From contig CAISVF010000001.1 of the NCBI GenBank assembly GCA_903888765.1, positions 1-32,659 of the forward strand: 32,659 nucleotides of DNA, written 5' to 3'. The stretch comes from an uncultured Verrucomicrobia subdivision 3 bacterium (GTDB taxonomy: Bacteria > Verrucomicrobiota > Verrucomicrobiia > Limisphaerales > UBA11358). Every line of letters starts with the position of its first letter. Position 1 is the first letter of the stretch. Positions 6,186 through 19,181 of this stretch are shown here, piece after piece. A model generated the notes under the pieces. The model was not told the origin of the DNA and ran no database searches. It saw nothing but the letters and a program-made list of their open reading frames with translations. Position numbers and translations under genes: made by a program.

Positions 6186-8422
6186 AAGACCAAATCATTA
6201 GCCTGTTGGCGCACCGGGATTATGTCCCGGCGAACGTGCCGGAGTTGCTGCAACTGCTGCAGCTGGCCCCCAACCGGCAACAGGAGTTGCAGGTGGTCTT
6301 GAAAAAGCTCGAACATGCGGGCACCGTCGCTCGCATCAAAGGCAACCGATATGTTTCACCGCGTGAGGCGGATTTGATTCCGGGCCGGATACGCATGAAT
6401 CGTTCCGGCCGTGGCTTTTTACAGCCGGATGATCCGGCGCTGAAAGAAATCGCCATTGCCGAAAGCGCCACGGGTACGGCGTTGCATGAGGATCGTGTGT
6501 TGGTGCGGCGCGAGGTGCGCCGGAAAAATTTCCGCACCGGGGACCAGGAGAACGGCACGGTGGTGCGGATTCTGGAACGCCGCCGCACCCAGATCGTCGG
6601 CACACTGCAGAAGAGCAAACAATTTCTCTATGTCATTCCCGACGACCCGCGCATTCCGCACGATGTTTATGTGACACCACCGCGCGATGTGGGCCGGCCC
6701 GCGCGGGTGGGGGACAAGGTGGTGGTCGAACTCCGCGAATGGGAATCCCGCCATAGCAATCCCGAAGGTGAAATTGTGGAAGTCCTCGGCGCTCCGGATG
6801 CGGAGGGCGTGGATATGCTTTCCGTGCTGCGGCAATATGATCTGCCCCTGCATTTTCCCCGGGCCGTGCTGGCCGAGGCGCATGCCATCGGTGCAGTGGT
6901 GGCTGAAAAAGACCTGGCCGGACGGCTTGATTGTCGCGCGCACAATGTGGTCACCATTGATCCCGATGATGCGAAAGATTTCGACGATGCCATTTGTTTG
7001 CAGCGCGTCTCGCCCGAGCAATGGCGTCTATGGGTGCACATTGCCGACGTGTCGCATTACGTTCAGCCGGGCTCAGCGCTCGACGCGGAGGCGCAGAAAC
7101 GCGGCAATTCCACCTATCTGGTGGACCGTGTCATACCGATGTTGCCGGAGGCGCTGAGCAACGAACTCTGCTCGCTCAAGCCCGACGTGGACCGTCTGAC
7201 CAGATGCGTGGAATTTCTCATCGCGCAGGATGGCCGCGTGCTCCACACAAAATTTCACAGCGCCGTCATTCATTCGCAACGGCGCTTTACCTACGCGCAG
7301 GTGCTGGCGGTTTTGCAGGGGGGGGCGGCATCCGATCCCATCGGGCAGATGCTGCAGCAGGCACATGCGCTGGCGCAAAAGATCCGTCGCCTGCGCTTCA
7401 AGGCCGGCTCGCTGGACCTCGACTTTCCCGAAACCAAAATCCGGCTGGACGATCAGGGGAAAGTTTTGCGCATTGAGAAAAATGAGAACGATGTGTCGCA
7501 TCAGTTGATCGAGGAATGCATGCTGCTCGCCAATGAAGCCGTGGCGGCGCGTCTGATGAGCCTGCGCACGCCTGCAATCTACCGGGTTCACGAGGAGCCG
7601 GATGCGCGGCGGTTGCAGGAATATCGGCAGGAAGTGCTGGCCCACCATGTTCCCTGCGGCAATTTGAGCCAGCCGGCGGAGGTGCAAAAGCTGTTGCACA
7701 AACTCGGCGGTTTGCCCATCGGTTCCGCGCTGAAGATTGGTTTTCTGAAATCGCTCATGCGGGCCTGTTACTCGGTGGAGCCGCTGGGACATTATGGTCT
7801 GGCCAAGAAAAAATACACCCACTTTACCTCGCCCATCCGGCGCTACGCCGATCTCGTGGTGCACCGCGCGCTTTTTGCTCCCGGCTCCGCTCAAAAGGAT
7901 TCCCTCAAGGAAATTGCCGAGCACATTTCGGTGACCGAGCGCAATTCCGCCGATGCCGAACGGGACAGCAAGGATGTGAAGTTATATGCCTTTTTGCGGG
8001 GGCAGCTGGCCTCCGGTACGCCGCAGAAATATCCGGCGCTGGTGACCGATGTGCGAAACTTTGGTTTCTTTGTGGATGTTCCCGGCCTGGCGATGAGCGG
8101 TTTGGTGCCGCTATCCAAGATTGAGGATGATTTTTACGTTTTTGATGAAGCCCGACGCAATCTCGTGGGCCGCCGCACCCGGCGCATCATCAAGCTGGGC
8201 GATCAAATCACGGTGCAGGTGGCGAAGGTGGACGCCTTTAAAAAGCAGGTGGACTTTTGTCTCGCCGGGGAGCCGCGTGCATTGCCCCCGTCGCGACCAA
8301 ACGGCGCCGGAAAAAAAGGAAAAAACAAATTCCCCGACGCTCCCGCCGCACGGCGGCCTAAATCATTTTCCACACCGTCCCGTTTCCATCGTTCTCCTCA
8401 GGGAACCAAACCGACCCGGTAA
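6182..8422 (+). CDS. rnr: Ribonuclease R (RNB family 3'-5' exoribonuclease)
   Basis: A 746-residue RNase R, close to the family's usual 700-800. In order it has an N-terminal helix-turn-helix region (about 1-60, ending [14 protein letters not shown]) and cold-shock/OB segments (about 65-235, with [13 protein letters not shown]). The RNB catalytic domain (about 250-570) carries [12 protein letters not shown], where D260, D266, D268 and D269 are the metal-binding aspartates, and [16 protein letters not shown] near 547-562. The S1 domain lies at about 614-700 ([15 protein letters not shown]), before a basic tail rich in K, R, P and G. The enzyme degrades structured RNA processively in the cytoplasm. 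GGGAG lies 7 bases before the ATG, one of the few clear Shine-Dalgarno sequences in the window. The start overlaps the cvfB stop. Its last 25 bp overlap the 3' end of the convergent giant gene. Confidence 0.96.
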
Positions 8423-11400
8423 AAGCCCTGATTATTGGTCAGCGGATGGGAAACTGTAAACGGTGAGGCGGCTAATGAACTGATGTCGGTCAGGACCTGC
8501 CAGCCACCGATGGCGGCGGCTGAATCAGGTGCGAATTCAACCCGATAATGCAAGCCGGTTGTGCCGGAGAACAGGAAGTTGAAATTACCGCTGCTGGCAG
8601 TTGGATTCGGCAGGATGAATGGTCGTGCCAGGTTTACGGAAAGAAAGTTTGCCGAGACGGAGAGATCATTGGTTACGTTGGCATCGGTTCTTGGATTCGC
8701 CAGTCCCCCATCATTCCAGCCTCCAAAGTAAAAGCCGCTATTCGGCACCGCCGTCACTGCGGTTCCGCTGGCCCCGAAATTCACCGTCTGTGGAGTTGTT
8801 CCGGTTATGGTGCCATTGGTATTCGCACGGTAGGTCAGGGTATAGGTATTCAGGGCAAAATTGGCGGTTACGGTCAGGCTGTTGGTAACGGCGTTGTCCG
8901 TTCTCGGGTTGGCTGCCGAGCCGTCCGACCAGCCGGTGAAATGGTAGCCGGCATCCGGCACGGCGCTGATGGCAGCGCCGTTTGCCCCATAGTTTACGGT
9001 CTGGGCCGCATTGCCGCTGATGCTGCCATGGGGGGCCGCCGCATAGGTCAGGAGGTACGTGTTCCAAGCCACGGCGAGGATTCCGTTGGTGGCCAGGGTG
9101 TTGGTTTTCCACCCCAAGCCGGTTGCGAGCGGAGGCAGGCTGAGGTTCGCAAAGGTTCCGACATAAGCCGTCGCATTAAACAGTTTCCAGCTGTCGCCAG
9201 CGGTCAACGCGTTGGTCCCGATATTCGTCACGGTCAGGCTGCCGCCCTCGGTTAAAGTCGTGGCGATGCTGGCCACATCATTCGTCAGCACGCCCCCATT
9301 CTTACTGATTTCCATCACGGTATTGCCCGATAAAGAGAGCAGGCCACTGAAAGTTATGGTGCCAAGGCCAAAGTTGCCGGGGGCAAAAGTGCCACCGCTC
9401 TGGATGGTGGTTGGGCCTTTGACATTGCCGGTTCCTCCCAACGTGCCGCCGGCGGAGATCGTTACGGTGCAGCCCGCCGCCAGTGACCCGTTTACGAGCA
9501 AAGTGCCCGCCGTCACCGTCATGGGCTTGGCAAAAGTATTGGCACCGGAAAGACGCAGGGTGCCGGACCCGGATTTGTAAAATACGGCGCTGGTGGCATC
9601 GCCGCTGGGAGAGGTGCGCACGACGGAGGAAATATCGAGATCAATTCCCGAGGGCGTGGTGCCGGCTGCAATGGTGAAGGTGGTGCTGCCTTGGCGCAGG
9701 GGCGAGAGCGCCACGCCGCTGATCGTCGCTGTGTTGGTTGCGGCCAATGCGTTCAAGGCGGAGCCACCGCCAAAAAAATCCAGGTTGCCGCTAGCATTGC
9801 CGGTTATGGCTCCACCGGTCAGGTTGATCGTCGCGCTGCCCAGGGTTTCATTGGCTGTGGTGTTGATATTGAGGGTGCCTCCGGGGAGATTAATCGTGGT
9901 CAGCGCTGAGGCACCCCCGCTGTAGCCCACGGCATCGCCGATGCTTAATTGCAGCGTGCCGCCGGAGTTGACGGTTGCGGTGCCGCGAATGGTGCCGCTA
10001 CCGCCGCCCCCGCCGGTGAGGTTCAGGGTGCCGGCATTAATCGTTGTGCCGCCAGTGTAGGTCTGCTGTACGGAAAGTGCCGAGTTTCCGGTTCCACTTT
10101 TAATCAGGCCTCCCGGGCCGGAAACGACGCCGGAAAGAAGGTTGCTGCCGGCGCCATCCAGGGTGAGATTAAACCCGCCATTGGTTACCGTCCCGCTGAC
10201 GCTAAGGGTTCCGTTGCTGCACATAAAGGATTGCGGTGCGGCCATGGCTGTGGCGATTGCCCAGGTGTTGTTGCCCGCCTGATTTAGCAATCCCCACAGC
10301 AGGGACAAGGAATTCCCGGCTAGCGCAAACCCGCCGTTGCTGAAGATGACTTGTCCGGCGCTGGTCAGCAAATTATTGGTGTTGCTGGGGCGGACGGCCC
10401 CTTGAAAGGTCAGGGACTGTCCATTCACCGGCAGCGTTCCATTCCAATTTGCTTGAGTATTCCAGTTGCCGTTTGTCCCGCCGCCGTTCCACGAGCTCAT
10501 GCCGTTCGTGGTAAGCACAAGCGTGCCATTGACGGAAAGATTACTGGTGTTCCATATAAGTCCCGGTGGCAAGGTGGGTAAATTGATGATGCTGCTGAAA
10601 CTTCCCGCATACGCCGGGGCGGTGAACAGGGTGAAGGTGTCGCCTGCCGTCAGAATATTGGTGCTGATATTGGTCAGGATCAGCGTGCCGGCAAAGGTGA
10701 GCGGGTTGCCGGTCACCACCAGCCCACTGCTGCCGGGAGTGCCGCCTTTGTTCAATGCCATTTGCAGGGTTCCTCCCAGGGTGGCGTTGGTTGCGGTTAG
10801 AGTGTTGGCCCCGCTAAAACTGAACATACTGCCGGCGGCCGCGTTGAGCGAGGCAACCGTCTGGTTGAAGCCATTCACAATCAGGGTGGCTCCGGTGGAA
10901 ATGCTGATGGCGGCATTGGCTCCGATGCAATTGAGCGCTCCGCAAGTGATGCTGCCGGCTTGAAGGTTCAGCGCAGTGTTGGCGCTGGTTGCCGTCCCCT
11001 TTAATACCAGCGAGCCGCCTCCGCGCTTATAAAAGCCCAGGCTGCCGACATTCAATGGTCCGTTGAGGGTGAGATCGCCGGTGCTGGTGTTGGTTCCGGC
11101 ATCAATCTGCATCGACATGCCATAGCCGGAGCTGATCATTTGGATGTTCTGATCCAGGATGGAGCCGGAAGCGGCGGCGGTGCACCAGAGTCCGTTTCCG
11201 TTAATGTCGAATATGCCGATATTGGCATAGCCGGAACCGTATTGGCGCACGGTTGTCGGGGCGGCCAGCAGCACGATCTGGCCGCTGGAGTTATAATTTT
11301 TTCCACCCAGCAGATAAAAGCCCGTGGTGGCGGCAGTGCCGTTCCCATTGATGGAGAGACCGGTGCTGGCATAGCCGCCGCCGGTGCTATACCCGATTTT

Positions 11401-14400
11401 CAGCGTTGCCCCCTGTGCTACGGTGTAGGGCGTATCGCCGGACTTGCTCTGCACCTCCAGCGTGCCGGCACTGACGGTGGTCGCCCCGGTGAAGGTGCCG
11501 GCGCTGCTTAGCGTCAGGTAGCCGGGGGCGGTTTTGGTAAATCCCTGGGTTCCAGCCACCACGGCGGTGATGATGTTGGTCCCGCTTTTGACGGCAACAT
11601 TGGGTGTCCCGCTGCTGGTGGCGAGGGTGAGCGGCCCGCCGGAACCCGTGCTGATCGTCCAGCCATGCTTGACGGACGGATTTAAATCGTCAAAAATCAG
11701 TGAGCCCGCTGTCCGGGCGCCATCAAGTGTCACGGTCCGGTTCGCAGCCAGGTTCAAGGTGCTGAAATCTGCGGCGGCATCGGTCCCGCCTGCAATGAGT
11801 CCGCCGTACCAGTTGGAGCCGCCCGCCCAGGAGCCGCCCAGTGCATTGGTCCAGACGCCTGAGCCGGCTGGCGCGGAGATGACCAAGGTCGCCGGGGCGC
11901 TGGTAACGCTGCCCACGATCACCGTATAGAGTCCGGCATCCGTACTGGCTGCGCTCGCAATCGCATAGTTGCTGTTGGTGGCGTTGGCGATATTGGTCCC
12001 GTTTAACTGCCATTGATAGCTGGTTGGTACCGGGCCGATCACCGAGGCGTTGAAACTGGCCGCCAGTCCGCCGATGACGGCATTGGTCAGCGGATTGATG
12101 TTCACACTGGTCGGGCCCACGACTCCCGTTCCGGTCAGGCTGAAACTATCAAAGCTGGCCAGATGAATATTGGGATTCATGGACTGGATCGCATGGGTGA
12201 AAACGCCCGCGTAAATCGTGCTGCCAAAGCTGGCAAGATTCGTGGAATTGGCGACATTCCAATTCACCCCATCCATAGAGACGGAACTGGTAAACTGGTT
12301 GCCCACCCGCTGTAATTTGTACCAGCGGTTGCCGCCGCCGAGATTGCTGGACCAGCGGTTCGCATCGCCATTGCCGTTGCGCATAGTGTCGTCCTCAAAG
12401 TACGTTCCGCCCCCCACCGAGCTGAAAAGGGCCACAAAACGGGTTCCGCTGCCGTCGCCTAGCGGCTGCCCCATGGTCGTATTGGTGGTGCCACGCAAGA
12501 TAATCCCTGCCCGCCAGCCGGAATCGGGGCTGACCCCGTCTGGTCCGGCACCGCTGGCGGTAATGCTGGCCAGGCGGCCGATCAACGTGCAGTCCCCCGT
12601 CACGGCGCGGCTCATGAGATTCATCCCGTCCCCGACCAGAGTGTAGGTGTTTCCTTGGATGCTGCCGCCCGAGGGATAATTATGCATTTCCAGCGGGGAC
12701 CAGTACCAGGCCCCAAATGCCGGATTGGTAGTGACCAGATTGACTGGCGCGGAATCGATTGTGTTCGTGGTATTATAGACGAGTCGGGCCCTTACCTGAT
12801 TGCTGGGGGCGGTCCAGATCATTGAATTGAGCACAAAGGGTGCGCTGGTATCCTGCCCTAGATAATAATCCACGCCCCGGCTGGGCCGCGTGTAGTATGA
12901 ATAGTAGTCAGTCAGATAAAACCGGACGCTGTTGATGGTGGCTCCATTGGCGGAGACGGTAGCATTCAAGTTGGGATTAGAGTTGGCCAGCACGGCGTTG
13001 TTGGTCGGAGCCGTCAGGGTGATGGTTGGCTCATTGAGCGAGGGCAAGCGCGAAAATGCCGAGGCGGGCACATCCGTTTTTGCGATGCCGGGGCCTTCAT
13101 AAGCCAGGCCCAGGCCATCGGTGTAAGCCGTGGTATTCACCGGATTGGCTGCCCCTTTAAAGAACTGCAGGTTAAAAGTGTGCGATCCCGCCGCCAGCGC
13201 CAGGCCGCCGCTCAAAAACTGGGAGGAATCATGCAGGCCATCGAAATTAATCACGGTGGTGCCGTCAATGATCAGCTGGCTGCCATCGCCGGAGTGCAGC
13301 GTGAAGGCGTATAAGCCGTCAATCGGAACCGTGAGGTAGCCGGTGTAATTGAATCCGTAATTGACACGCTGCCGCCTTGGCGTGGTATCCGGAAAACCCA
13401 CCGCCCCTTGAAAGACGGGTGTCAGCAGGCTGAAGTTGGGCAAGGCGGTCCAGTTCCCGGAACTGGACTCGTAGTATTGGTAGGTCAGACCGCCCACCGT
13501 CCCGGGCACCGTGACCGCCGGCAGCGGCACCGCCGAGCCCGGAGTAATGAGCACGGGAGCATTGGTGTTATAAAAAATATCCGAAATGGTCAGGCGGACG
13601 TACGGCGTCATGCCCCCGGCTACGCTCAGCAGTTTTTGCCGCGCTTCCGGATCGCTGTCATAGAAGGATGCCCATGGGGACCCGGTGTACGCTGCATTGG
13701 TGAAGACTTCAATGCGGTAGCCGAGTTGCGGCGAACTGGCGGACGGGATCTGCCATTGCACGAGCAATTGGGTGCTGACGACGCTGGCCGTGGCGTTGCT
13801 AACGAGAATCGGGTCAAATGTGGGCTGGGCAGGTTGGCCGCTTACAACCAGGGTCGTTGGAACATTGTACAAATTGGTATAGCCCGGGCCACAATCGGAC
13901 TCGGTTGCAGTATTGGTGTTGATCAGATAGACATACCCACGCGAAGTGTATTGAATCTGGTTGGCCATTTGCCAGGCCCCGCTCTTGTGGTAATAGCCGT
14001 TGGCATGGTTGACTTGATAATTGCCAGTGTATCCGGCAAAATTTTCCTGCCATCCGCTCATGCCGTTTACGCCGGTCACTGCGAACGGATAGAGAAACGT
14101 GCCCAGATGATACCAGTTGCCACTCACCGGTTCTTTCATCCACATGCCTTGGTATCCCAAATGCGCTGTTCCGTCGGCCGGGAGCCAGTACCGCACCGCA
14201 AAACGGCTCCAGAGGTTGGTTGTAAACTGCGGCCAATACCCCTTGATCGCGCAACTGCTGCCTTCGCCGATTTGGGCATAGCCTACCATGTTGGTCCCGG
14301 CAAAGGTTGGAATTTGTTGGGAATAGGGGGCATAGCCGCCGCTTGCGGGCCAGCAGACATATTGCACAAGGGTGCCCGGGTTCTGGTGGGTCATGCCGCC

Positions 14401-14625
14401 GTAGAAATAGCCCGACCCGCTATCTGAACTGCTGACATATTCTTCATGAATGGCGTCATAAATCCCCGGCGGCACATTCGGGGAACGATAATCCTGAAGG
14501 ATGCAGTCCGAGCCGCTGGCCACGTTGAAATAATGATATTGCGCCTGGCTGATAGAGGTCGTGAAGGCGGCAGCGGTCAGGAGGCAGTTAAGGGAAAGCC
14601 GCTTCCGGCGTGGTGGGGTGTTCAT
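8398..14625 (-). CDS. Giant secreted mosaic protein: DUF3472-like, PA14, Ig-like, autotransporter repeats, InlB repeats
   Basis: A 2075-residue protein with a signal peptide (basic MNTPPRRKR, hydrophobic core, SQA cleavage near residue 28). Visible domains in order are as follows. A DUF3472-like region (about 35-260) contains [10 protein letters not shown] and [20 protein letters not shown]14 carbohydrate-binding-type domain (about 375-525) contains [18 protein letters not shown] Big-type segment (about 530-630) precedes a laminin-G/DUF1349-like beta sandwich (about 637-830) and an Ig-like domain (about 842-915, [10 protein letters not shown]). About 930 residues of beta-helical autotransporter-associated repeats follow ([13 protein letters not shown] and similar). 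Two InlB-type repeats (about 1853-1998) both contain a GW-DG core. A C-terminal module ends in FYRVGLVP. No membrane beta-barrel and no PEP-CTERM tail are present. It probably binds or processes polysaccharide outside the cell. The start lacks a Shine-Dalgarno. The gene is alone on its strand. Confidence 0.9.
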
Positions 14626-14857: not shown

Positions 14858-14886
14858 TTGACCCAAGAGCCGTGTAGGCGTATTAT
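14858..14886 (+). promoter_or_regulatory. Sigma70-like promoter for the exosortase operon
   Basis: TTGACC (14858-14863) and TATTAT (14881-14886) are separated by exactly 17 bp, each differing from the sigma70 consensus at one position. Transcription would start near 14893, only about 8 bases before the ATG at 14901, giving an almost leaderless mRNA. The rest of the 275-bp gap to the divergent giant gene shows a small palindrome (ATGCTCTATAGCAT, 14668-14681) and nothing else recognisable. Confidence 0.6.
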
Positions 14887-14900
14887 TTTGTCAGATACTC

Positions 14901-16598
14901 ATGATTAAGAATACACCCCGCTGCCCTATTCCGACAGATGCGATCGGTAACGGGCAGTTGCCGGGTGGTTCGCTTGTGGACTCGGTTTCAACTGGCTCAA
15001 AATCAACTTCCCCTTCCGGGCCAGTTCGCTTAAGCAGACTCAATCTGGCTTTGTTTGCCTTTGGTTTTGCGCCTTTGTTGATAGCCTTTTTTGGCAATCT
15101 TTGGGATCGTCCGTATTACCAGTTTTTTCCGACCGCCCTTGCCGGCGCGGGCTTGCTCATTTATCAACGGATTCAGGAAGTGTCTGGGCGTCAGTCCAGT
15201 GGCCGGATCGCATGGAGCGTTGTATTTCTTGGCGGATCCTTTTTCGTTCTCTCGGTCGCCACGCTGCTATGGTCTCCCTGGCTGGCCAGCCTGGCCGCCC
15301 TGCTGTTGATGGTGGGGCTTGCGTGGTGGATGGGAGGGTGGGAGTGGTTGCGGGCGGTGTTGCCAGGGGTGGTGATCATGTTAACCATCATTCCACCCCC
15401 TTTGGGGCAGGATACGCAATTAATGCTGTACCTGCGGGAATTGGCGGTGCGCTGGAGCAGTCATTTGTTGGATACTTTAAAAGTAGTCCATTTTTTAAGA
15501 GGAAATGTCATTGAACTCCCGCAAACCCAGTTGCTGGTGGAAGAGGCTTGCAGCGGGATCAACTCGGTACTATTCACCATTTCAGCCTGTTTGATCTACC
15601 TTTTTTGGCGCCGCCGATCCTGGTGGCGCATGATGGTTTGCCTGCCTGGCGTAGTCGCTGGCGTTCTGCTGGGAAATGTAATTCGTATCACGCTGGGAGG
15701 CTGGCTCGCCTATCACCAGATCATTAACATCCTTTCTGGTTGGCGGCATGAATTGACGGGATTGGTGCTGGTGGGTGCTTACCTGGCCCTTATTCCCAGC
15801 CTGGACGAATGCCTCGAGTTTCTTGCCCAGCCGCTCAGGAATAAACATGCCCAGCCGATGTCGTCGCCTCCACCGGCTTTCAAACCGCTCGGTCAGGAGT
15901 TGGGGGCGCGAAAGAACTCAGTTTCGGGGTTGCTGGTCGGGGGAGCGTTTGCCTTGCTGGGGCTGGCTGGGCTGGGAATGGGCCTGGTCCAGCATTTTGG
16001 ATCCAAAGTTCCCTGGCGCATGGCGTCCCCTTCGGCCTTGCGAGCCGGGGCAATTTTTACCATGCCTCCCGAGATTGGCCTTTGGAAACGCGTGGAGGCA
16101 GCCACGCCCGGGCAACAGGTTGAAACCTTGGGAATCTATTCAAAAATATGGCAATACGAGCAAAACGGCTGGGTGGCCCAAGTGGCATTGGATTACCCGT
16201 TTCACGGATATCACGACGTCACCCTTTGTTATCACAATCATGGCTGGCAGGTATCCCATCAGGAGCGCCTGTCTGGAGATGGAACCAACAGCAGTCCACC
16301 GCTGATGGCTGTGGAAATGACCAAGGAACCGGTCAGTCAGGCACTGCTTTGGTTTAGTACGGTGGATGAGCAAGGGCATTGGTTGGAACAATCCGCCGTG
16401 AAGTTTAATCTTTTAAAATCCGGCCGGTTGCCCGGCACTTTTGACGGAAACAATATCACCAGTTACCGTGTGCAGGTATTGGTCACAGCCTATGGTCCGG
16501 TGCCAGCGGCTGAACGTGAGCCGGCGAGGCAGCTATTTGAAGCTGCTCGCCGCATTTTGGTGGAGCAATTGCTCAAGCAACTAGCCCCCCAGCCATGA
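14901..16598 (+). CDS. Exosortase with fused C-terminal EpsI-like domain
   Basis: A 565-residue membrane protein. The N-terminal half (about 45-315) has roughly eight membrane helices and the exosortase catalytic set: C217 in VEEACSGINS, R262 in GNVIRI and H283 in GWRHE. This transpeptidase-like family cuts PEP-CTERM proteins in the inner membrane during export. After a further helix near 345-365 comes a soluble, probably periplasmic domain (about 370-565) containing YHNHGWQVSHQE and a C-terminal helix. It resembles the EpsI-type domain fused to several exosortases, possibly the XrtU type, but the subtype is not certain. The hydrophilic first 45 residues are unusual, and a GTG at codon 26 is an alternative start. 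It overlaps the TPR gene by 4 bp and faces a PEP-CTERM gene, its likely substrate. Confidence 0.93.
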   Translation: MIKNTPRCPIPTDAIGNGQLPGGSLVDSVSTGSKSTSPSGPVRLSRLNLALFAFGFAPLLIAFFGNLWDRPYYQFFPTALAGAGLLIYQRIQEVSGRQSSGRIAWSVVFLGGSFFVLSVATLLWSPWLASLAALLLMVGLAWWMGGWEWLRAVLPGVVIMLTIIPPPLGQDTQLMLYLRELAVRWSSHLLDTLKVVHFLRGNVIELPQTQLLVEEACSGINSVLFTISACLIYLFWRRRSWWRMMVCLPGVVAGVLLGNVIRITLGGWLAYHQIINILSGWRHELTGLVLVGAYLALIPSLDECLEFLAQPLRNKHAQPMSSPPPAFKPLGQELGARKNSVSGLLVGGAFALLGLAGLGMGLVQHFGSKVPWRMASPSALRAGAIFTMPPEIGLWKRVEAATPGQQVETLGIYSKIWQYEQNGWVAQVALDYPFHGYHDVTLCYHNHGWQVSHQERLSGDGTNSSPPLMAVEMTKEPVSQALLWFSTVDEQGHWLEQSAVKFNLLKSGRLPGTFDGNNITSYRVQVLVTAYGPVPAAEREPARQLFEAARRILVEQLLKQLAPQP

Positions 16599-18049
16599 GT
16601 TTACCACATCATCTCCGGCGTTGGTTTGGCAGTCGTGCTTACGGGCGGATTGGCTGGTGCCTCCCGGCAGCGCTGTTGGGGGCGGCTTGGCTGGCCTTTG
16701 GCTTGGCTCAGTTCGTCACGAAATCAAACGTGGTCCATCAGTACTACTCTCGCACGGCAGCGCGTGCGCTGGCGGTTCGGGATTATAAGACTGCGCATGT
16801 CGCCTACCAGCGGCTGTTGCTTTCCTGGCAGGAAGATCTGCTGCAAAATCAATATTATCTGGCCCTGTCCCTATTTGGATTGGGACGGGAACCAGAAGGA
16901 GCCGCGCTGCTGAACCTGGCGGCACCCGTTGAAAAGGCGGGCTACGCGCCAGCTCACCTGTTTGTGGCCCGCTATTTGTTGTCCCAGACCAATCTGACGC
17001 TGGCAGGTATAAAGCAGGCGGAGGTGCACTTGAACCATGTTTTGGAACGGGAACCCGTTTCCCTTGATGCTCATGAAATGCTCGGGCGATTGTATTTTCA
17101 GGTAGGCAAGGATGATTTGGCCAGCAAGCATTTGCTCTCGGTGGTGGCTGCCCGGCCAGCCAGCGCCTTGCCGCTAGCCATGCTGGCCAAGCGGGCAGGG
17201 AATGAAAAGGAAATCTGGCACTGGACCGAAGTGGCGGCAGCTTACTACCGTGACCGGGTGGAGAAGGCTCCCAAAGATAACCCTGAGGATCGCCTGGCTT
17301 GGGCGCAGACACTGGCTTTGCAGGCGAATTATGAAAAAGCGATTCAAGTTTTGGATTTCGGAGAGGATGTGTCGGGGTCCAAAGTGTATGCCTTTGCCTT
17401 TGCCGAGGTCTATGGTTACTGGGCCGCTCAGGTGGCCCGGGATGCACCGGCAAATCTGGCCACCCGGCTTAAGTGGATTCAAAAGGGTTTGACTTACAGG
17501 CCCCAGGACATTCGTTTGCTGGATCTGCTGCTGAATTTAAGCCAGTTGGAAGGGTTGGAAGCCAAAATGGTCGAGCCGCCGTCCGATCAGGGAGACGCAT
17601 TGGCCATGTTTCATCTATTGATGGGAACCTCAGCCGCCCAGCATGGCGATCCGGCTGGTGCTTACCGACATTTTGCCTTGGTGAATGGCTTGGATTCCAA
17701 GCTCTTGGGCGTGCCTAACAACATGGCGCTCTTGCTGGCCCTCACCAAACATCCGGATTTGTCCAGGGCTCTGGCTATCACCCTGGCTTTGATAGAAACC
17801 TCCCCCAGCCAGCCGGATTTTCACAACACCCGCGGCCAGATACTAGTAAAACTCGGAAAGTGGGAGGAAGCCGTTAAAGATCTGGAGTTCGCCTTGCCAT
17901 CCGTCTTGGACAAGTCTGCAACCCAATCCTCTCTGGCCGAAGCTTATCGGAAATTGGGTAATACCCAGTTGGCGGAACGTTACGAACGGCTTAACCAGCA
18001 ATCGAATACCCCCGCTTTGGGCATAGGTGACGGAAGCATTACTCCATGA
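16595..18049 (+). CDS. Membrane-anchored TPR protein of the exosortase operon
   Basis: A 484-residue protein with a short cytoplasmic N-terminus (MSLPHHLRRWFGSRAYGR), one membrane helix (about 20-41) and then an alpha-helical region with TPR-like units. Examples are ALAVRDYKTAHVAYQRLL, DAHEMLGRLYFQVGKDDLA, GQILVKLGKWEEAVKDLE and SLAEAYRKLGNTQLAERY. The TPR array should face the periplasm and act as a protein-binding scaffold. The ATG overlaps the exosortase TGA (ATGA), so both are made from one message. TPR proteins often accompany exosortases (PrsT-like in other systems), but direct homology to PrsT is not evident here. It may hold the PEP-CTERM substrate or the exosortase complex; this is inferred from context. 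The gene ends 77 bp before the terminator of the opposing gene. Confidence 0.85.
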   Translation: MSLPHHLRRWFGSRAYGRIGWCLPAALLGAAWLAFGLAQFVTKSNVVHQYYSRTAARALAVRDYKTAHVAYQRLLLSWQEDLLQNQYYLALSLFGLGREPEGAALLNLAAPVEKAGYAPAHLFVARYLLSQTNLTLAGIKQAEVHLNHVLEREPVSLDAHEMLGRLYFQVGKDDLASKHLLSVVAARPASALPLAMLAKRAGNEKEIWHWTEVAAAYYRDRVEKAPKDNPEDRLAWAQTLALQANYEKAIQVLDFGEDVSGSKVYAFAFAEVYGYWAAQVARDAPANLATRLKWIQKGLTYRPQDIRLLDLLLNLSQLEGLEAKMVEPPSDQGDALAMFHLLMGTSAAQHGDPAGAYRHFALVNGLDSKLLGVPNNMALLLALTKHPDLSRALAITLALIETSPSQPDFHNTRGQILVKLGKWEEAVKDLEFALPSVLDKSATQSSLAEAYRKLGNTQLAERYERLNQQSNTPALGIGDGSITP

Positions 18050-18120
18050 CTACCAGCCCCCCCGCTGGTCGGCTCGAAAATTTAATTCATCCCGTACCAG
18101 GCAGCTTTTGCGCAGGGTAT

Positions 18121-18151
18121 AAAAAAACCGCCACGGCTACTCGTGGCGGTT
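18121..18151 (-). terminator. Intrinsic terminator of the PEP-CTERM gene
   Basis: A perfect 10-bp stem, AACCGCCACG (18126-18135) with CGTGGCGGTT (18142-18151), encloses a 6-base loop. On the minus strand it is followed at once by a run of seven T (complement of 18121-18127). It lies 19 bp after the stop of the minus-strand PEP-CTERM gene. On the plus strand no T-run follows, so it should act mainly in one direction. Confidence 0.88.
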
Positions 18152-18170
18152 GAAGTACGAGTTCAGCAGG

Positions 18171-19106
18171 TTATTTCCGGCGGCGGATCATCATAAACCC
18201 GCCGACACCGGCAGAGGTCAGAATGGAGATAATCAAAGAGGACGGTTCCGGCACCGCCTCAACCTCGGATAATGCAATCAGCCCGGTTCCGCCAGCTCCG
18301 GCAAAAGCGGTCCCGGTGTCAATATTGGGAAAATCTCCAAGAACCGGAATATGGTAGGTCACTTTAAGATAATTGCCGGCCGCAAGGTATCCGCCAGCGG
18401 CAATGGCTACGGTCGAAACGTCAAGCGAGTCATAAGAGGCGCTGGTGCCGGCAACGGGGGGAGTCACTGTTCCATTTCCCCAAGGATCAACTATGCCAAT
18501 CGTTCCTGATCCATCGGTCAGATCGATGCTCTGCAGGGAAACAAAATGACCACCCGCTTGCGGTGACCACGGTTGGTTGGCAGTGATGGTATTGCCTGCC
18601 GACTGCCAGAAAATACCCAGTTGCACGCCGTCGTGCGCATTCAATACATCTGCCAAACTTTGAGCAGAAGGTTTCCAGGTCTGCCAAGTGCTCACGCCCG
18701 GAGCCGGGTTTCCCAGTGGTCCGGCTGTGGTGAGATAGGTTTGCAGGCCAGATAACGCGTTGGCCGGTTGGGTGGCTGCAACCGGATCCGTCGCCATAAA
18801 GCTCTGCAAATGATTTACTGCGCCGTAATTATTGGGATCAAAAGCAAACGGACTTGGATTGCCCAGACTTAATTGATAAGCATTCAGATAGGACAATCCG
18901 TTAGCCACCGAAGTGGGTACGCAGGAATTGTTTTTGAGTGCCTGAGAACCATTTACGCTTGCATTTCCCTGCCCCAGCAGTTGAGTGACAATGCTATAAT
19001 CTTCCGATGCAGTCTGGGCGTATAGGTTGCTGAGGTTGCAACTTAGCAGGCCCGCTGCCAGCGGAATGAACAAACGACTAACTTTGAATAGTTTCTGTGT
19101 TTTCAT
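18171..19106 (-). CDS. PEP-CTERM protein with C39/papain-like cysteine peptidase features
   Basis: A 311-residue exported protein with a signal peptide (MKTQKLFKVSR, then a hydrophobic core to about residue 30, YAQ cleavage). The C-terminal sorting signal is complete: V-PEP-S at 285-289, a hydrophobic helix and the basic end MMIRRRK. Between them lies an arrangement typical of C39/papain-like peptidases: C62 in NNSCVPTSVANGL at the start of a helix, H187 in GGHFVSLQ and D207 in IGIVDPWG. The residues are in the right order and spacing for a Cys-His-Asp triad, so it may be an active or ancestral thiol peptidase anchored at the cell surface. It has its own promoter and terminator. It faces the exosortase-TPR operon and is the only PEP-CTERM protein in the window, so it is the likely dedicated substrate. 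Activity is inferred. Confidence 0.92.
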   Translation of the reverse strand: MKTQKLFKVSRLFIPLAAGLLSCNLSNLYAQTASEDYSIVTQLLGQGNASVNGSQALKNNSCVPTSVANGLSYLNAYQLSLGNPSPFAFDPNNYGAVNHLQSFMATDPVAATQPANALSGLQTYLTTAGPLGNPAPGVSTWQTWKPSAQSLADVLNAHDGVQLGIFWQSAGNTITANQPWSPQAGGHFVSLQSIDLTDGSGTIGIVDPWGNGTVTPPVAGTSASYDSLDVSTVAIAAGGYLAAGNYLKVTYHIPVLGDFPNIDTGTAFAGAGGTGLIALSEVEAVPEPSSLIISILTSAGVGGFMMIRRRK

Positions 19107-19152
19107 TTTTTGCTATGTGTTTTATTGCTGTTTCTAAGGGGATTACGAGAAC

Positions 19153-19181
19153 ATTTTAAGTTAAGCACAAACGCTTGTCAA
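19153..19181 (-). promoter_or_regulatory. Sigma70-like promoter of the PEP-CTERM gene
   Basis: On the minus strand TTGACA (19181-19176, perfect consensus) and TAAAAT (19158-19153, five of six) are separated by 17 bp. Transcription should begin near 19146, giving a leader of about 40 bases that is A-rich (AGCAAAAA just before the ATG) and has no Shine-Dalgarno. The flanks are AT-rich, which favours promoter function. Confidence 0.75.

Follow-up and report, generated by a model that had tools for sequence, protein, structure and literature searches.

An XrtU exosortase with its TPR partner beside a gene for a papain-like PEP-CTERM protein in a verrucomicrobial contig

We examined a 32,659-nucleotide stretch of DNA (the window) from an uncultured Verrucomicrobia subdivision 3 bacterium, in which an exosortase gene and an overlapping TPR gene converge with a gene for a PEP-CTERM protein. 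We favor the interpretation, with a probability of about three in four, that the locus is an ordinary XrtU-TPR operon lying side by side with a member of a papain-like PEP-CTERM family, and thus that it consists of two modules. An earlier note, made from the letters of the sequence, had suggested that the three genes could form a single sorting or processing unit; every sequence feature that it listed for them was confirmed. The features of the locus are as follows.

14901 to 16598, plus strand: XrtU exosortase of 565 amino acids, based on matches to NF033780 and PF09721 and on its catalytic residues
16595 to 18049, plus strand: TPR protein of 484 amino acids, based on Pfam TPR matches, linkage to XrtU and hydrophobicity
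18126 to 18151, minus strand: terminator-like hairpin plus T run, lying downstream of the papain-like gene
18171 to 19106, minus strand: secreted papain-like (C39_2-like) PEP-CTERM protein of 311 amino acids, based on TIGR02595, alignment, model and fold matches
19153 to 19181, minus strand: promoter-like TTGACA-17-TAAAAT, based on a consensus match only

The exosortase contains C217 within EEACSGI, R262 within NVIRIT and H283 within GWRHE, and these three residues are conserved in its XrtU relatives except for those of loci L133 and L135. The EpsH core matches PF09721 with 134.4 bits. The fused C-terminal domain (residues 393–559), which like the three residues had been pointed out before, matches NF033780 with 126.8 bits (cut-off 40) and is thus the domain by which an already catalogued class, exosortase U, is defined. 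The exosortase of the window accordingly belongs to XrtU, a known type with a usual partner gene. EpsH proteins that carry a fused EpsI region at their C-terminus have long been known (PMC1569441). Profile searches with NCBIfam and Pfam reported no EpsI match for the window exosortase, and our literature search found no paper on XrtU.

The usual partner is the TPR protein, whose reading frame overlaps that of xrtU by the 4 bp originally noted. The protein has a single strong hydrophobic stretch at its N-terminus, and an N-terminal stretch was also found in the relatives examined. PrsT (TIGR02917) is its best NCBIfam match, but at 51.1 bits against a cut-off of 312.2 an identification as PrsT was rejected. 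To the window locus we compared other XrtU loci, giving 25 in all, of which 22 were evaluable and three stop at contig edges. A TPR gene was found directly after XrtU or within approximately 250 bp of it in 20 of the 25, and with one locus counted in which the two share a single frame, XrtU-TPR is a conserved pair in 21 of the 22 evaluable loci. In that locus (L136:1-2040), the XrtU C-terminal region and the TPR protein occupy one open frame, which reflects either fused genes or a fault in the assembly. Locus L135 had no TPR match, and its XrtU catalytic residues did not align. The window itself is ordinary; it is this comparison that shows XrtU to travel nearly always with a TPR protein. Conserved linkage thus holds for the first two of the three genes; the papain-like gene adjoins XrtU in no other genome found, and lies outside the conserved pair, so that the self-contained three-gene unit of the earlier note is not borne out.

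A PEP-CTERM gene adjoins the XrtU-TPR pair in 11 of the 25 loci (the window and ten others), and the identity of this neighbor varies between loci, with the papain-like protein occurring in the window only. Polysaccharide-export and chain-length genes lie near XrtU in L059, L065 and L067; in L069, the nearby genes include those for a glycosyltransferase and an MBOAT acyltransferase. A Pfam scan of window proteins encoded beyond the first 4.3 kb revealed no polysaccharide genes, in agreement with the initial description, and given the genes near XrtU in relatives this absence does not define the system. On the other side of the exosortase gene, and divergent from it, the window encodes a secreted-looking protein of 2075 amino acids (8398–14625) with PA14, DUF3472, passenger-associated repeats and InlB B-repeats. 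With respect to regulatory signals, the terminator proposed for the PEP-CTERM gene was found as a hairpin of 10 pairs followed by a T run (18151–18126). The proposed strong promoter is present as a match to 11 of 12 consensus positions (19181–19153), but because the region holds four promoter-like sites compared to a mean of 3.6 in shuffled sequences, which is no enrichment, it can be taken as a consensus match only and the word strong was dropped.

The protein encoded at 18171–19106 has a signal peptide, seen by inspection, and ends in the tail VPEPSSLIISILTSAGVGGFMMIRRRK, which matches the PEP-CTERM model TIGR02595 with 19.3 bits (cut-off 16); the corresponding Pfam family PF07589 scores 15.6 bits on the same protein, below its cut-off of 20.7. 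Pfam C39_2 (PF13529) matches at 15.9–16.7 bits, under the gathering cut-off of 24, NCBIfam has no family for the papain-like domain, and sequence searches of the PDB gave no matches. A literature search found no paper on PEP-CTERM cysteine proteases. We aligned the mature domain in 20 sequences, with identity down to approximately 19%. Q46, C62, P64 and H187 are invariant in this alignment, and the position of D207 is occupied by Asp in 17 sequences and by Asn in three. As read from the alignment, an invariant Gln, Cys and His with Asp or Asn as the third residue is the pattern of papain-type enzymes. Q46 and C62 are separated by 16 residues; the corresponding Gln-Cys spacing in papain is 6, shorter than in the window protein.

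An AlphaFold2 model of the mature domain, based on the 20-sequence alignment, had a pLDDT of 72.3 and a pTM of 0.79. The best Foldseek matches to this model were staphopain, plant papain-type enzymes and cathepsins, with E-values from 1.2e-5, and VIA on the papain-fold matches gave Z-scores of 12–13.8 and an rmsd of 3.5–4 over the whole mature domain, at an identity of 8–15% to the papain-fold structures. A structure predicted from six full-length homologues was discarded, having a pLDDT of 44.7 and meaningless fold matches. The model supports, with fair confidence, a papain fold for the mature domain. C62 is predicted to open a long helix, H187 to open a strand, and D207 to lie just past the next strand; as far as the secondary structure of the model and the fold matches tell, the three residues do not appear to lie far apart. 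The Cys-His-Asp layout had been called C39- or papain-like, and of this description the predicted papain fold and the presence of the three residues are supported; the C39_2 score being under its cut-off, C39 in particular is not singled out.

The sub-threshold C39_2 match could also be read as the mark of a catalytically dead protein, one that keeps the papain fold for a binding or structural role in the matrix, and among the fold matches is 2b1m, a papain fold lacking the catalytic cysteine. We consider this unlikely, as Q46, C62, P64 and H187 are retained without exception, with Asp or Asn at position 207, in sequences that have diverged to approximately 19% identity, and as the model predicts these residues at papain-like places relative to the helix and strands. 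These data suggest that the papain-like protein is probably an active peptidase.

Close homologues of the protein share 31–55% identity with it by BLAST; within the genus, five further genomes contain them, and one more was found in another family of the same order. A profile search of the class with the mature domain added approximately 20 more; an order-wide search with a full-length profile (A1) gave, at E-values of 1e-5 to 1e-3, mostly matches to the C-terminus only, and these were left out of the homologue count. Most of the class-wide homologues have PEP-CTERM tails, a few are tail-less, and some lie inside longer putative surface proteins (L233, L236, L240, L244 and L245). Inspection by eye revealed no conserved neighbor of the papain-like gene in the loci of other species, save for the near-identical G034 and G037. 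In one homologue (L138:456-1628, the same gene being found in L076), a VPDSG-CTERM tag with a PF18205 match over cut-off replaces PEP-CTERM. VPDSG-CTERM is the signal named for XrtC (NCBIfam TIGR04151), an exosortase other than XrtU, and to judge from its tag the papain-like domain of this homologue has changed sorting class. The best reading of these proteins is that they constitute an uncatalogued verrucomicrobial family. With no NCBIfam model and scores below the C39_2 cut-off, its members are probably annotated merely as PEP-CTERM proteins.

Whether the papain-like protein is tied to XrtU was examined in 320 genomes of the order, among which are incomplete metagenome-assembled genomes, so that some absences may be false. 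The papain-like protein was present in seven genomes, XrtU in 18, and both in two, compared to an expected 0.39 (P = 0.053); within the genus, the P-value was 0.20. Co-occurrence was not significant in either case and was dropped as support for a pairing. The five homologue-bearing genomes without XrtU have other exosortases, and together with the VPDSG-tagged homologue they indicate that the papain-like family is not tied to XrtU. The proposal that the papain-like protein is the dedicated substrate of its neighbor is thus not supported, as the gene adjoins XrtU in no other genome found and homologues occur in genomes where no XrtU was found. Four exosortases are encoded in the genome of the window, along with 26 PEP-CTERM proteins that score above the cut-off. 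The earlier note had named many other PEP-CTERM genes served by this exosortase as a point against its proposal, and this point applies in part: 25 others exist, but they may be handled by the three remaining exosortases. In L073 (G000:C147:1-10646) of the same genome, at least seven PEP-CTERM proteins that resemble one another are encoded in tandem.

The tails themselves also bear on the pairing. In relatives, the PEP-CTERM proteins that adjoin XrtU have spacers of 21–24 residues between PEP and the first basic pair, and in most of these tails the second position after PEP is Gln (PEPxQ). Both characters are shared by tails next to XrtU in L059, L062, L065–L069, L128 and L133, and are also found in unlinked tails of XrtU genomes (G060:C366, G060:C72, G012:C101 and G012:C14). 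PEPxQ with a spacer of 21–24 residues is thus a candidate sorting signal for XrtU. A profile of XrtU-neighbor tails, built from eight tails, a small sample drawn partly from the genomes then searched, gave matches at E < 1e-5 solely in XrtU genomes. Four of these matches are unlinked proteins outside the building set, which suggests that XrtU serves several unlinked clients.

The tail of the window's papain-like protein has a spacer of 22 residues, the longest among the 26 in its genome, 24 of which have spacers of 17–20, and in length it agrees with the tails of XrtU neighbors. It lacks the Gln of PEPxQ and is unmatched by the XrtU-neighbor profile at E = 0.1. The closest tail belongs to the homologue in G012, and a sister of the window's XrtU is encoded in that genome as well; no other protein of the window's genome has a closely similar tail. 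On the basis of its tail, the papain-like protein may be an XrtU client. The long spacer, the G012 tail and the lack of a similar tail elsewhere in the genome, along with the adjacency of the genes, are what can be said for a self-contained unit of XrtU, TPR protein and dedicated papain-like substrate. We regard such a unit as quite improbable, given that linkage is seen nowhere else, that the homologues of five genomes do without XrtU, that co-occurrence falls short of significance, that XrtU neighbors in relatives are other proteins, and that the XrtU-neighbor profile passes over the window tail. Nevertheless, the spacer and the G012 tail leave room, against the two-module interpretation, for a real pairing within the XrtU clade of the window.

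To our knowledge there is no settled rule for which exosortase handles which tail in genomes that have several exosortases and dozens of PEP-CTERM proteins. The long, often PEPxQ tails of XrtU neighbors provide a testable specificity rule. A broader and rather doubtful extension is that XrtU enzymes read a distinct long tail, with 21–24 residues before the basic cluster and usually PEPxQ, that the XrtU clade of the window has shifted to PEPSS...AGxGGF on a surface papain-like protein, and that tail class, not gene order, would pair exosortases with clients in multi-exosortase genomes.

According to the two-module interpretation, XrtU would cleave the tails of PEP-CTERM proteins at the inner membrane and pass several unlinked clients on to the surface or exterior of the cell; the TPR protein would be its membrane scaffold. 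The papain-like protein would be secreted and would probably act as a peptidase, either on the surface of the cell or within the matrix, having been sorted by an exosortase that is possibly, but not necessarily, the adjacent XrtU.

The locus resembles the XrtU and PEP-CTERM/EpsH system (NF033780; PMC1569441) in the Cys, Arg and His of the EpsH core, the XrtU C-terminal domain, the PEP-CTERM proteins of the genome and the TPR partner. It differs from the XrtU loci L059, L065, L067 and L069 in that these have polysaccharide genes nearby. The TPR protein is similar to PrsT, the TPR protein of the XrtA/PEP-CTERM system, in being tied to an exosortase system, but is a different, shorter protein that is linked to XrtU. 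To C39_2 (PF13529), the papain-like protein has a weak sequence match only, below the gathering score. With the papain-type cysteine peptidases staphopain, papain and the cathepsins it shares the predicted fold and the Gln, Cys and His with Asp or Asn, and it differs from them in its C-terminal PEP-CTERM tail.
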